Assembly: GCA_009692005.1 (NCBI GenBank)
Contig: SHZZ01000034.1
Span: 1-39,754 of the forward strand
Length of the DNA stretch: 39,754 nucleotides
From: Gemmataceae bacterium
Lineage (GTDB): Bacteria; Planctomycetota; Planctomycetia; Gemmatales; Gemmataceae
Direction: 5' to 3'
Within the stretch, counting starts at the first letter, position 1. Each line of letters opens with the position of its first letter. Made by a program: the position numbers and the translations under genes. This document shows positions 31,664-39,754 of the stretch, one piece after another. The notes beneath the pieces were generated by a model. That model was given only the letters and a program-made list of their open reading frames with translations, had not been told where the DNA came from and did not search any database.

Positions 31664-32395
31664 CTATTCCCGGCTGTTTAATGCCATCAGGATCCTAAGG
31701 ATGTAGTAAAACAGAGTCGCCGCCGAAGAAAACAACCAGAGCGATGCCGCCACATGCTTGTCCGTTGGGAAATGCAACATAATCGTGGAGGTTTCATACA
31801 AAATGTAACCGCTCATGAGCGCCACCATGGCGAAGGAGAACACCAACCCCAGACTGAAACCAAACAGGATAGAACAAAGGACCAATCCAAGGGCAATCAT
31901 TCCCCCTACGCTAAGAATCGGCCCAAGGAATGAATAATCTTTGCCCGAGACAAAGACTGAAATGGTCAACCCGCCGAAAACAAAAAGCGTCATCAACCCA
32001 GCCGATTTGATAATCTCTTGGCCAGGAAAATAATTGCTGGCAATGAGCAGGATTGGGAGGAAGATGACCGCTTCAGCTGCAATGAATAGCCCTAGCCCCA
32101 TGTACTGTAACAGGCTAGAGGTATCCGATTGAGCCCACTTGTTCGCCAAAAAACTCGCCCCCATAAAGGCCAGAATTAACACCAACCCGGACCAGGGGGA
32201 TCGGCCAATTAAATTAAAAACCTCCGCCGGGGGGACCACCTGCATTAGAACGGATTCTAAGCCGACGAAGGCCAAAACAGCGCCGGCCAAATGCGTGTAG
32301 GTTTTTCGGATGAACGAAAGGCGGGCCGCCCCGCTTTCCGCGTAGGACAGTTCTTGATCTTGATACTGTTCCTTGTATTGCGAACCGTAACTCAT
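31664..32395 (-). CDS. Bax inhibitor-1 (YccA/YbhL) family membrane protein
   Basis: This 243-residue protein has seven likely membrane segments after a Gln/Tyr-rich cytoplasmic start (MSYGSQYKEQYQDQELSYAE). RLSFIRKTYTHLAGAVLAF is typical of bacterial BI-1 proteins, as are the later SGYILYETSTIMLHFP and LFYYILRILMALNSRE. Family members are implicated in calcium leak and membrane stress; the function in bacteria is not settled. GGGAGA lies 6 bases before the ATG. It has its own terminator and an 91-base spacer upstream, so it is probably monocistronic. Confidence 0.94.
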   Translation of the reverse strand: MSYGSQYKEQYQDQELSYAESGAARLSFIRKTYTHLAGAVLAFVGLESVLMQVVPPAEVFNLIGRSPWSGLVLILAFMGASFLANKWAQSDTSSLLQYMGLGLFIAAEAVIFLPILLIASNYFPGQEIIKSAGLMTLFVFGGLTISVFVSGKDYSFLGPILSVGGMIALGLVLCSILFGFSLGLVFSFAMVALMSGYILYETSTIMLHFPTDKHVAASLWLFSSAATLFYYILRILMALNSRE

Positions 32396-32486: not shown

Positions 32487-33755
32487 TTAACTGCCGGGAT
32501 TTTCCCCGGCAGCCCCGCCAGCCTCGTGGGGTTTGGGCCTCCATACCACGGCTAGGCCAAAACCCGCAGACAACAAACCGATCGCCCCAAAATTCAATAG
32601 TAAACTAATCCCATGGCTGATGCCAAATGCCCTGCGAGCGGCGCGGACTTTTTCCTCCAACCCGGGTGTTGGGGGTTTTTCGCGCAGGAGTTCATCCACC
32701 AAGACCGTCCGGGCGCGGTAGGCCTGACGCACTTTGATTTCCATCGCCCAACCCATCAGCGCCAGCAGCCAGGCCGAGGCCACCAGGCGAAGAATCCAGC
32801 CAGGGCAACGGCAACCTGGATGCCTTTTCGCCTGGCCCATTAATACCAGCAAGACCAAAAACCCCAGGAAAACTTGGCCGAAATAGTAGAGGGGGAAAAT
32901 TTTATTGACCACCACTCCGGCCAGGCGGGAAGCCTGCTCCCGGGCCAAAGGGCCAGGCAAAGCTGCTGGCGCCGGCTGAGTAAACTCCCCAGGCAAGGGG
33001 AGCCAATAGGGCCGGTCGGGGGAAAGACTCAGAGCTTCAAACCAGGAAAACACCCCGGGGCCAATTACGAAAGTAAAGAACAAGCCACCTCCTATCCAGA
33101 GCGCCAATGGGGTGATTACCATCAAGCGTTCCATTGTTTCCCATAAGCAGGATTCTTTAACTTTACTTTCTGTTCCCGCCAGAATCCTTTTCAAGTTCCC
33201 AATATGCTTGATCCACACCAAGGCCGTGGCCAGAATGGCGAAACCGGCTAAAGCCAGGGAGCCCTCGCTACCGCTTTTCCAATACAAACCTGACTGAACC
33301 AGCGAAAGAATCATGGTGGCAGCCAGGGAACCAAGGGACACCATGCGCCAGCCAGCCACCAGCGACAGCCAGGTGAAAATGGCCAGGGTGAACGGGATGG
33401 GCATGAGGACGGCGACGGCGCCGGCGCCGGTAGCAACCCCTTTGCCTCCTTTGAAACCCAGAAACAGGGGGAACAAGTGACCAGTAAAAGCGGCCAGCCC
33501 GTAGAGGATGCCTGTAATGTCGCGGGTCTGTTCTGATGGATTGGTTAACCCGGCCCAGGCGGGAACCGCCCCTTTGAGAAAATCCAACAGAAAAACCACC
33601 AGGCCCCACTTGGCGCCCAAGACTCGGCCCACATTGGTGGCGCCTATGTTGCCGCTGCCTTCCTTCCTCAGGTCGACGCCCTTGGCTCGGCCCACGATCA
33701 ACCCAAAGGGGATCGACCCAATCAAGTACGATGCCAACAATCCCGGCCAGAACAT
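32487..33755 (-). CDS. plsY: PlsY glycerol-3-phosphate acyltransferase fused to a DUF4149-like domain
   Basis: This 422-residue protein has an N-terminal PlsY domain (about 1-196) carrying its three motifs: SGNIGATN (34-41), GHLFPLFLGFKGGKGVAT (92-109) and HIGNLKRILAGTE (184-196). PlsY moves an acyl group from acyl-phosphate to glycerol-3-phosphate as the first step of phospholipid synthesis. The second half (about 205-420) has four likely membrane segments and the DUF4149/TMEM205-like pattern ALWIGGGLFFTFVIGP, then NKIFPLYYFGQVFLG and a charged helix EKVRAARRAFGISHG. Normal PlsY is about 200 residues. The two parts share one uninterrupted frame, so this is a real fusion unless a sequencing error joins two genes. 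Confidence 0.92.
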   Translation of the reverse strand: MFWPGLLASYLIGSIPFGLIVGRAKGVDLRKEGSGNIGATNVGRVLGAKWGLVVFLLDFLKGAVPAWAGLTNPSEQTRDITGILYGLAAFTGHLFPLFLGFKGGKGVATGAGAVAVLMPIPFTLAIFTWLSLVAGWRMVSLGSLAATMILSLVQSGLYWKSGSEGSLALAGFAILATALVWIKHIGNLKRILAGTESKVKESCLWETMERLMVITPLALWIGGGLFFTFVIGPGVFSWFEALSLSPDRPYWLPLPGEFTQPAPAALPGPLAREQASRLAGVVVNKIFPLYYFGQVFLGFLVLLVLMGQAKRHPGCRCPGWILRLVASAWLLALMGWAMEIKVRQAYRARTVLVDELLREKPPTPGLEEKVRAARRAFGISHGISLLLNFGAIGLLSAGFGLAVVWRPKPHEAGGAAGENPGS

Positions 33756-37298: not shown

Positions 37299-38429
37299 TT
37301 GATCCCGAAAGGGGGATGGATCCCCTTGGTTTGCGTTCTTCTATCGACCGTCGTCAAAAGCGGACAAGGCCACAGCGGCTGGGCGCCCAGGCACCGGGAA
37401 ATTGCCTCGGGGAAAGCGCACGGCCTTGGCCCGGCTTCCTGCCGCTTTTTCCTCTGGACCGCCAGCCTGATCTATGGCCTGGGGGTCCGGCTTCGCAACT
37501 TCTTCTACCATTGCGGTCTCAAAAAATCTGTTTCTGTTGAACTGCCTGTCGTCTGTGTCGGCAACCTGACCACGGGCGGCACGGGGAAAACTCCTTGCGT
37601 GGAGTGGGTGGCGCGGCAGCTTCGCTCCCGCGGTTTGCGGGTGGCGCTCATCAGCCGGGGCTACGGCGGCACGGGCGGCGTCAATGATGAAGCCCTCGTT
37701 TTGGAAAACCACCTGGACGATGTTCCCCACTTGCAGGGAAGCAACCGCGCGGCCTTGTGCAAAACCGCCTTGGAGGAACTTGAATCGGAAGCGATTGTTC
37801 TTGACGATGGGTTTCAACATCGCCAACTGGCGCGGGACCTCGACCTGGTCTTGATCGACGCCAGCAACCCCTGGGGTTACGGGCACTTGCTGCCTCGGGG
37901 CTTGCTCAGGGAACCTGTATCGGGTTTGCGTCGGGCTCATGCAGTCATCATCACTCGCGCCGACCACCTGAATTCCAATGACCTGGCTTCTCTTAAATCG
38001 AGGATTCAAAAGCTGGCGCCAAAGGCCCTTATCGCCGAGGCTGTTCACCAGCCGGTGGAGTTGATCCGCTTCAACCAGCCGGCGCTTGCCTTGAAGGAAC
38101 TCGAGGGAAAGAGCGTTCTGGCGTTTTGCGGGCTCGGCAATCCAGAGGCGTTCTTCAAGAGTTTGCAACACCTCGGAGCGAATGTCGCACACACGCTGGA
38201 ATTTCCGGATCACCACCCTTACACACGCGAGGATATGGATGCCATTTCCCATAAGGCAAGGGAAAGCAATTCCCCCATCGACTGGATTGTCACCACGGAA
38301 AAGGATTTGGTGAAAATCCGCAGTGAAGCGCTGGAGGGTTGTCCCTTGCTGGCGCTAGGGATCTCGTTTGAGTTGCGTTCAGGCAAGGAAAGTCTGGAAA
38401 ACCTGCTGGCGAGAATCTGCCAGCGCTGA
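37299..38429 (+). CDS. lpxK: Tetraacyldisaccharide 4'-kinase
   Basis: This protein of up to 376 residues phosphorylates the lipid A precursor at the inner membrane. An N-terminal membrane-associated helix (FFLWTASLIYGLGVRLRNFF) precedes Walker A GNLTTGGTGKTPCVEW (88-103), SRGYGG (119-124) and DDGFQHRQLARDLDLVLID (169-187). The C-terminal half has the usual FCGLGNPEAFFKSL, FPDHHPYTREDMD and VTTEKDLVKI. The start is uncertain. The TTG at 37299 lacks a clear ribosome-binding site, while an in-frame TTG at 37326 follows AAAGGGGGA by about 10 bases. Homology with LpxK begins near residue 29. It heads an envelope cluster with the next two genes. Confidence 0.94.
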   Translation: MIPKGGWIPLVCVLLSTVVKSGQGHSGWAPRHREIASGKAHGLGPASCRFFLWTASLIYGLGVRLRNFFYHCGLKKSVSVELPVVCVGNLTTGGTGKTPCVEWVARQLRSRGLRVALISRGYGGTGGVNDEALVLENHLDDVPHLQGSNRAALCKTALEELESEAIVLDDGFQHRQLARDLDLVLIDASNPWGYGHLLPRGLLREPVSGLRRAHAVIITRADHLNSNDLASLKSRIQKLAPKALIAEAVHQPVELIRFNQPALALKELEGKSVLAFCGLGNPEAFFKSLQHLGANVAHTLEFPDHHPYTREDMDAISHKARESNSPIDWIVTTEKDLVKIRSEALEGCPLLALGISFELRSGKESLENLLARICQR

Positions 38430-38452
38430 CCCAAGGAAGGGAGTAGTTGATA

Positions 38453-39436
38453 ATGGAAGTGAAACCACGCCCCATGGCGCCATTTGATTTGCAAGGGCTG
38501 AAGACCTATGACCTGGCCTCGCGGCCGTCAAAGGTGTTTGCCGAGGATTTGGGGAAGCCGTTAAGCGCTGGCGCCAGCGTGAATGACTTGCTGGATTCCT
38601 TGCCAAAGCAATTGGCGGGCAAGAACCTCCGGCGTCTTCGCGACCACCTGGCCCGGGCCGCTGCAGAAGGCAACCCGGTTGCCATCGCTCTGGGCGGGCA
38701 TGTGATCAAAACCGGCTGCGCGCCCTATCTCATCGATTGGATTCACAAGGGCCTGGCCAGGTCGGTGTCGATGAATGGCTCGGCCGCCATTCATGATGTT
38801 GAACTCGCCCTGGAAGGAAAGACCAGCGAGGATGTCGGCGCGACTCTGCACGCGGGGCAGTTTGGCATGGCGCGGGAGACCGCGGATGTGTTCGCCCTGG
38901 CTGGGCGCATCGGCGCGGACGAGGGCATTGGCCTGGGCGCAGCCCTTGGCCGCGTGCTGCAAGACCTTTCTTGCAAACATCCGAAAGCCAGCCTGTTGCT
39001 CGCCGCGGCACAGGCGGAAATTCCCTGCACCGTGCATGTGGCGCTGGGAACCGACATTGTTCACATGCATCCGCATGTAAGCGGGGCGGCGCTGGGCGAA
39101 GCCAGCCACATCGATTTCCGCATCCTTTGCACAGTGGTAAGCGGCATGGCCAAGGGCATCTGGATGAACATCGGCAGCGCGGTCATTATGCCGGAAGTTT
39201 TTCTCAAAGCGGTCAGCGTCGTGAGGAATTTCGGCTACGACCTCGATGGCATGGTCACGGTCAATCTGGACAAGGAATCGCGCTACCGCAGCACGGTGAA
39301 TGTCTTGAACCGGCCTTCCTCGGAAGGGATCGAGTTGACCGGGCATCATGAAATCATGCTGCCTCTGTTGCATGCCTCCCTGGCGGGAGCGCTGGAAAAA
39401 TGCCAGCCGACACTGGTTGAAAGCCAGGCGGCCTAA
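38453..39436 (+). CDS. Conserved protein of unknown function in a lipid A/heptose cluster
   Basis: This 327-residue soluble protein starts at the ATG at 38453, 9 bases after GGGAG; a TTG at 38447 is less likely. Well-ordered motifs suggest an enzyme: ALGGHVIKTGCAPYLIDWI, SMNGSAAIHDVELALEGKTS, ATLHAGQFGMARETADVF, HVALGTDIVHMHPHVSGAAL, GEASHIDFRI and WMNIGSAVIMPEVFLKAV. The His-rich HMHPHVSG segment could bind metal. No signal peptide or membrane segment is seen. I recall similar uncharacterised proteins near heptose genes in other bacteria, and a distant likeness to the deoxyhypusine-synthase fold is possible but unproven. It lies between lpxK (23 bases) and the heptose kinase gene (15 bases), implying a role in LPS core or a linked sugar pathway. 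Confidence 0.8.
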   Translation: MEVKPRPMAPFDLQGLKTYDLASRPSKVFAEDLGKPLSAGASVNDLLDSLPKQLAGKNLRRLRDHLARAAAEGNPVAIALGGHVIKTGCAPYLIDWIHKGLARSVSMNGSAAIHDVELALEGKTSEDVGATLHAGQFGMARETADVFALAGRIGADEGIGLGAALGRVLQDLSCKHPKASLLLAAAQAEIPCTVHVALGTDIVHMHPHVSGAALGEASHIDFRILCTVVSGMAKGIWMNIGSAVIMPEVFLKAVSVVRNFGYDLDGMVTVNLDKESRYRSTVNVLNRPSSEGIELTGHHEIMLPLLHASLAGALEKCQPTLVESQAA

Positions 39437-39451
39437 AACCGGGAGGGAACC

Positions 39452-39754
39452 ATGTCAACGAAGAATCCGCATGAAATAGCCGACATGGCCCAGGCCGATA
39501 CGGGCGAACGCCTGGCGGCGCTGGTTCGCAATCTGGGCAGCCCGAGGATCCTGGTGCTTGGGGACCTCATGCTCGACCGCTATATCTGGGGCGATGCCGA
39601 GCGCATCAGCCAGGAAGCGCCGGTCATTTTGCTGCGAGCGGAAAAGAAGGAAGAGCGGCTGGGCGGGGCGGCAAGCGTGGCGAATATGCTGCGCACCCTG
39701 GGGGCGAGAGTGCGAGTGGCTGGCGTGGCCGGCAGCGACGCCGACGGCGCCCGC
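39452..39754 (+). CDS. hldE: Heptose-7-phosphate kinase (HldE/RfaE N-terminal domain), 5' part
   Basis: The first 101 residues of the gene are seen before the window ends. GGGAGGGA lies just upstream of the ATG at 39452. The ribokinase-like (PfkB) start is clear: ILVLGDLMLDRYIWGDAERI, then EAPVILLRAEKKEERLGGAA and VANMLRTLGARV. In this family the kinase phosphorylates D-glycero-D-manno-heptose 7-phosphate for the LPS inner core. Whether an adenylyltransferase domain follows (HldE) or it is a stand-alone kinase (HldA/RfaE1) cannot be seen. It is probably cotranscribed with lpxK and the unknown gene. Confidence 0.88.
   Translation, partial: MSTKNPHEIADMAQADTGERLAALVRNLGSPRILVLGDLMLDRYIWGDAERISQEAPVILLRAEKKEERLGGAASVANMLRTLGARVRVAGVAGSDADGAR

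Follow-up and report, generated by a model that had tools for sequence, protein, structure and literature searches.

The window analysed here (the whole stretch of 39,754 nucleotides) carries on its minus strand, at positions 32487-33755, a single gene that reads from ATG to TAA, encodes 422 amino acids plus the stop and has an AGGAGG upstream of its ATG. Profile searches and the presence of the same single frame in relatives identify it as a plsY::DUF4149 fusion. Its first part (33153-33755, minus strand, residues 1-201) is the glycerol-3-phosphate acyltransferase PlsY and its second part (32517-33146, minus strand, around residues 204-413) is a DUF4149-like membrane domain of four predicted helices, hereafter the C-domain. 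The two meet at a short junction without a long linker (33147-33176, minus strand, residues 194-203), where PlsY ends with GTE and the first DUF4149 helix begins at residue 203; the spacing at this junction is similar among relatives. Directly downstream on the same strand, positions 31664-32395 hold a gene for a Bax-inhibitor-1 family membrane protein (PF01027, 96.4 bits).

The PlsY half scored over the cut-off with both family profiles, PF02660 (163.7 bits for a cut-off of 24.1, residues 9-191) and TIGR00023 (148.6 bits for a cut-off of 137.2), the Pfam and NCBIfam assignments together spanning residues 6-201. The three PlsY motifs were all found, confirming the complete PlsY that the initial annotation had described, and the residues of the glycerol-3-phosphate (G3P) pocket, S34, R44, K105, S143, H184, and N187, did not vary among the 27 rows of the fusion alignment. 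By visual comparison, they correspond to S35, R45, K104, S142, H177, and N180 of aaPlsY, whose roles are given in PMC5700162. An AlphaFold2 model of the fusion obtained with an alignment of 24 sequences (pLDDT 90.4, pTM 0.84) consists of a PlsY fold followed by four long helices. The top matches of the PlsY half in a structure search were the A. aeolicus PlsY structures 5XJ5-5XJ8 (E ~1e-9), on which it superposes with 38-39% identity and a TM-score on the target of 0.83-0.86, and the seven-TM PlsY fold was recovered. The window protein thus has the family profile, the three motifs, the pocket residues, and the predicted fold in common with PlsY (PF02660/TIGR00023; A. aeolicus 5XJ5-5XJ9), but the solved PlsY, of about 200 amino acids, ends where the added four-helix membrane domain starts. 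Since all the G3P-pocket residues are kept and the window's genome encodes PlsX, which supplies acyl-phosphate, we infer that the PlsY half is active and should form lysophosphatidate at the cytoplasmic face.

The assignment of the C-domain depended on how it was scanned, PF13664 (DUF4149) giving 21.7 bits in the full-length protein, below its cut-off of 24.6, and 30.9 bits, above it, when the C-terminal 220 amino acids were scanned separately. The window's C-domain scored 240 bits against the C-domain model, and DUF4149 was matched by all 25 aligned C-domains of the family (E 0.1 or better), any other family being matched by two at most. The in-frame continuation into a second, DUF4149-like multi-helix domain, also proposed initially, is therefore upheld by the separate scan and by the four predicted helices, which occupy residues 203-244, 270-311, 316-358, and 366-404 of the model. 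In addition to this profile match, the C-domain shares with DUF4149 the conserved WxG, F, V, and HxxS positions; it differs from the canonical domain by a longer loop between helices 1 and 2 (a family-specific insert) and by its fusion to PlsY. Human TMEM205, a protein linked to cisplatin resistance, belongs to DUF4149, and its function and substrates are described as unknown in PMC9333335. Modelled separately with 3 sequences only, the C-domain reached a pLDDT of 74, and Foldseek searches with it against solved structures returned nothing at E 0.001 or better. Weak sequence-profile matches to ribosomal protein L13 (best E 0.0041) were taken as chance. Helix bundles matched by VIA-align 2 (Z <=14.2) were designed or unrelated proteins, and helical models may just share an arrangement; among solved structures, no counterpart of the C-domain other than such generic bundles was found.

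We recovered the fusion throughout the window's family (f1, 95 genomes). PlsY was found in 74 of these genomes and the C-domain in 82, including all 74 that bear PlsY. Both halves lie in a single open frame in 70 of the 74, across most genera of this divergent family (55 cases read from the sequence and 15 deduced from agreeing coordinates and open-frame lengths), a positive outcome of the search for the same fusion in other planctomycetes that the initial annotation had proposed. The four exceptions were a genome (G028) in which a TAA and an overlapping AAGGA, forming a new ribosome-binding site, precede the ATG of a separate DUF4149 gene, one with a broken frame (G126), one whose halves lie on two contigs (G058), and one in which PlsY itself is split over two contigs, the available part being still joined (G047). 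The fusion occurs in named records, a Fimbriiglobus MAG and a 'Planctomycetaceae' MAG; as Fimbriiglobus is a member of Gemmataceae (Gemmatales), the window's family is probably Gemmataceae. A possible frameshift near 33130-33200 had been flagged for checking; none was seen, relatives at ~48-50% identity aligning across the junction without a change of frame.

In the sister family (f2), the C-domain was present in 7/7 genomes. In four of them (G064-G067), plsY is immediately followed by a separate DUF4149 gene of the same strand, an adjacent, ancestor-like arrangement of the kind that the initial annotation had proposed to look for. The two genes were on different contigs in a fifth genome (G063), and the remaining two (G061 and G062, forming genus g40) have DUF4149 without PlsY. 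Outside the window's order, PlsY was solitary in those genomes of the class where it was found. We also considered 26 DUF4149 loci of other planctomycete families, drawn from the 72 genomes with a DUF4149 match among 392, plus G072; neither PlsY nor LPS-core genes were found within the few kilobases fetched around them. DUF4149 in general is thus not tied to PlsY or to the LPS-core pathway. The adjacent plsY-DUF4149 pair was seen only in the window's order and, as the two genes are separate but adjacent in the sister family, the fusion derives from such a pair.

Within this order, the fusion or its separate counterparts recurrently follow an LPS-core cluster with the order hldE, heptosyltransferase, two WaaP-type kinases, and GT4, as determined by tblastn and profile searches. 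The NCBIfam cut-offs were exceeded for heptosyltransferase II and for domain II of hldE, and the kinases and transferases were supported by Pfam. Five of the 21 fused regions have the cluster beside the fusion (G001, G007, G010, G050, and G032, the last with a gap of ~3 kb), and two of the four adjacent loci of the sister family have it beside the plsY-DUF4149 pair (G066 and G067). The cluster also adjoins DUF4149 alone in both g40 genomes and in four of the six genomes of genus g32, the two others (G048 and G130) being on short contigs. It is non-contiguous with the fusion in the other 16 fused regions, among them the window, where lpxK, a GSU2086-family gene, and hldE lie ~3.5-5.8 kb from the fusion (hldE at ~5.8 kb). 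These three genes lie on the plus strand: lpxK, encoding the lipid A 4'-kinase, at 37299-38429 (TIGR00682, 198.1 bits for a cut-off of 91.95), the GSU2086-family gene between lpxK and hldE at 38447-39436 (NF052581, 358.6 bits for a cut-off of 250), and the first part of hldE, truncated where the contig ends, at 39452-39754 (TIGR02198, E 7e-25). The stretch 37299-39754 is the beginning of an LPS locus whose remainder lies beyond the contig. In several genomes, a peptidyl-arginine-deiminase-type gene (PF04371) was also observed in opposite orientation beside the DUF4149 end, at L169 (6454-7575) and in the g32 loci.

Two genera keep DUF4149 without PlsY. In g32 (G031, G048, G060, and G130-G132, one of them a single-contig assembly), the C-domain was found in all six genomes and PlsY in none; PlsX was likewise found in none of them, versus 8/8 other genomes of the family in the same search. 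In g40, DUF4149 was present at the locus in both genomes and PlsY in neither. Weak PlsX-like matches were observed at G061:C13 and G062:C214 (83 and 105 bits over 246 of 324 positions). The retention of DUF4149 at its locus in both genera argues that this module has a role that does not need PlsY.

In the C-domain tree, the window's family formed one clade versus the sister family (100/99), g32 branched within a group of fused proteins (100/98 at an enclosing node), and the split protein of G028 was also nested among fused rows. None of the 200 bootstrap trees (0%) had a branch that separated the fused rows from all others. Constraining the fused rows together gave p-AU values of 0.022 versus g32 plus the sister family and 0.032 versus G028 plus the sister family, values that are somewhat generous given that the constraints were picked after the quick tree had been seen. 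The careful tree comprised 61 of 77 rows, leaving out G072, G126, G058, G066, five rows of f77/f80, and seven rows that were near-duplicates or came from the same genus; g32 and G028 had the same placement in the quick tree, which comprised all 77. The fusion has a single origin in this tree. The nesting of g32 among fused proteins suggests that this genus shed its PlsY half, and the simplest history is a single fusion at the root of the family, after which g32 lost PlsY and the gene was split again in G028. In the quick tree, the stand-alone C-domain of G072 (family f7; L145, 6416-6979) branched inside the Gemmataceae-type fused proteins with a very long branch, a placement that may reflect either a transfer or a long-branch effect.

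We also looked for enzymes that could replace PlsY. The TIGR03703 profile for PlsB matched 0/17 genomes of PlsY-less lineages and just 2/14 in the control, so that these lineages may have a divergent replacement enzyme. None of PlsX, PlsY, and TIGR03703 PlsB was found in the g32 genomes or in G071, G080, and G076. Acyltransferases of PF01553 were rejected as a mark of PlsY-less genomes, being present in 21/21 genomes, PlsY-less and PlsY-bearing alike.

Several positions of the C-domain (W220, G222, F226, F287, V342, H381, and S384) are kept, with few exceptions, across the fused, split, and stand-alone forms, including those of g32 and the sister family. Arginines 346 and 349 are each present in 54 of 55 fused rows; the window protein itself departs from the common residue at two positions, with V for H at 213 and Y for R at 346. 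Over the 27 rows, the net charges of the loops were +2.5 between helices 2 and 3, -0.7 between helices 1 and 2, and +0.7 between helices 3 and 4, which is consistent with a cytoplasmic start of the C-domain after PlsY. The side on which PlsY ends, which we take from its published topology, was used to orient the C-domain. With these loop charges and this cytoplasmic start, H381, R349, and the beginning of helix 2 would lie toward the membrane's outer half.

The interpretation that we favour, with moderate confidence, is that of a bifunctional membrane protein in which PlsY is covalently tied to a C-terminal module serving the assembly of envelope lipids. The N-terminal seven-helix PlsY would convert acyl-phosphate and glycerol-3-phosphate into lysophosphatidate in the cytoplasmic leaflet of the inner membrane, and the four-helix DUF4149 module would have its own function in the assembly of envelope lipids (LPS and/or phospholipids). 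In the ancestor, plsY and DUF4149 would have been neighbours closing an LPS-core cluster; a single fusion event at the root of the window's family would then have held the two modules at 1:1, before the PlsY half was dropped in one genus and the gene re-split in one lineage. Conserved C-domain residues facing the outer half of the membrane would suit the moving or handing on of a lipid rather than cytoplasmic acylation. A transport or handover step carried out by the C-domain is thus conceivable. Against the favoured interpretation speak the 16 fused regions in which the LPS-core cluster is non-contiguous, the 26 loci of other planctomycete families in which DUF4149 has neither PlsY nor LPS-core neighbours, the lack of specificity of the structural matches of the C-domain, and the two departures of the window protein from common C-domain residues. 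The more specific proposal that the DUF4149/TMEM205 module is a lipid flipping or handover unit, linking the synthesis of phospholipid precursors to LPS/lipid A assembly, with PlsY producing lysophosphatidate on one side and the module acting in the membrane's outer half, seems rather improbable as it stands, and we put it forward tentatively.

The main alternative is that DUF4149 is a dedicated accessory of PlsY, acting as a stabiliser, an acyl-phosphate channel, or a remover of lysophosphatidate, and that the fusion fixes a two-subunit complex. We consider this possible, albeit clearly less probable than a separate role. It would agree with the family-wide conservation of the fused frame (70/74) and with plsY and DUF4149 being direct neighbours in the sister family, and there is a precedent: according to PMC5700162, two PlsY proteins, from Bellilinea and Thermanaerothrix, are fused C-terminally to a DegV partner resembling the fatty-acid-binding protein FakB, an association read as substrate channelling. 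That partner, known from two entries, is proposed to deliver acyl-phosphate, whereas the partner described here is a multi-helix membrane domain found family-wide. The accessory role fits poorly with the presence of DUF4149 without PlsY in g32 (6/6), where PlsX is absent as well, and in g40 (2/2), and with the 26 DUF4149 genes that have no neighbouring PlsY elsewhere in the phylum. The initial annotation had deduced a role in membrane lipid metabolism from the fusion to the enzyme of the first step of phospholipid synthesis. The connection with membrane lipids is supported and extends to the LPS/lipid A locus, but the domain is not a simple helper of that first step, because lineages devoid of PlsX and/or PlsY keep it at the locus. 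The predicted placement of conserved residues toward the membrane's outer half, the LPS neighbourhood, and this independence from PlsY together lead us to favour a separate envelope-lipid role over help in acylation.

The fusion could also be incidental, the stop between two co-transcribed genes having been lost once and the halves working as before, so that their joining has no functional meaning. The former adjacency of the two genes, the re-splitting with a new ribosome-binding site in G028, and the clean loss of PlsY in g32 would all fit, but the persistence of the fused frame and of its short junction in 70/74 genomes and most genera suggests that it is well tolerated or selected, and we regard an incidental fusion as quite unlikely. 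Finally, a sequencing or assembly artefact, a frameshift merging two genes, has nothing for it beyond the 99 contigs of the window's assembly, and we reject it as practically negligible because the fused frame is conserved in 70 of the 74 PlsY-bearing genomes, single-contig assemblies among them.

The protein family thus represents a new domain architecture built from known families. We found no description of a PlsY-DUF4149 fusion in the literature within our reach on DUF4149/PF13664, PlsY fusions, and planctomycete PlsY, most subscription journals lying outside that reach; the accessible part of PMC6431249 contains nothing on it. The architecture is made informative by its natural splits and losses: the PlsY fusion, its ancestor of adjacent genes, and the lineages with DUF4149 only amount to a natural experiment on DUF4149, a family without known function. 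The comparison also exposes members of the window's family without PlsX and PlsY, which raises the question of their lysophosphatidate-making enzyme. If true, the lipid-handling reading would offer a first clue to the function of a family that extends from bacterial members to human TMEM205.
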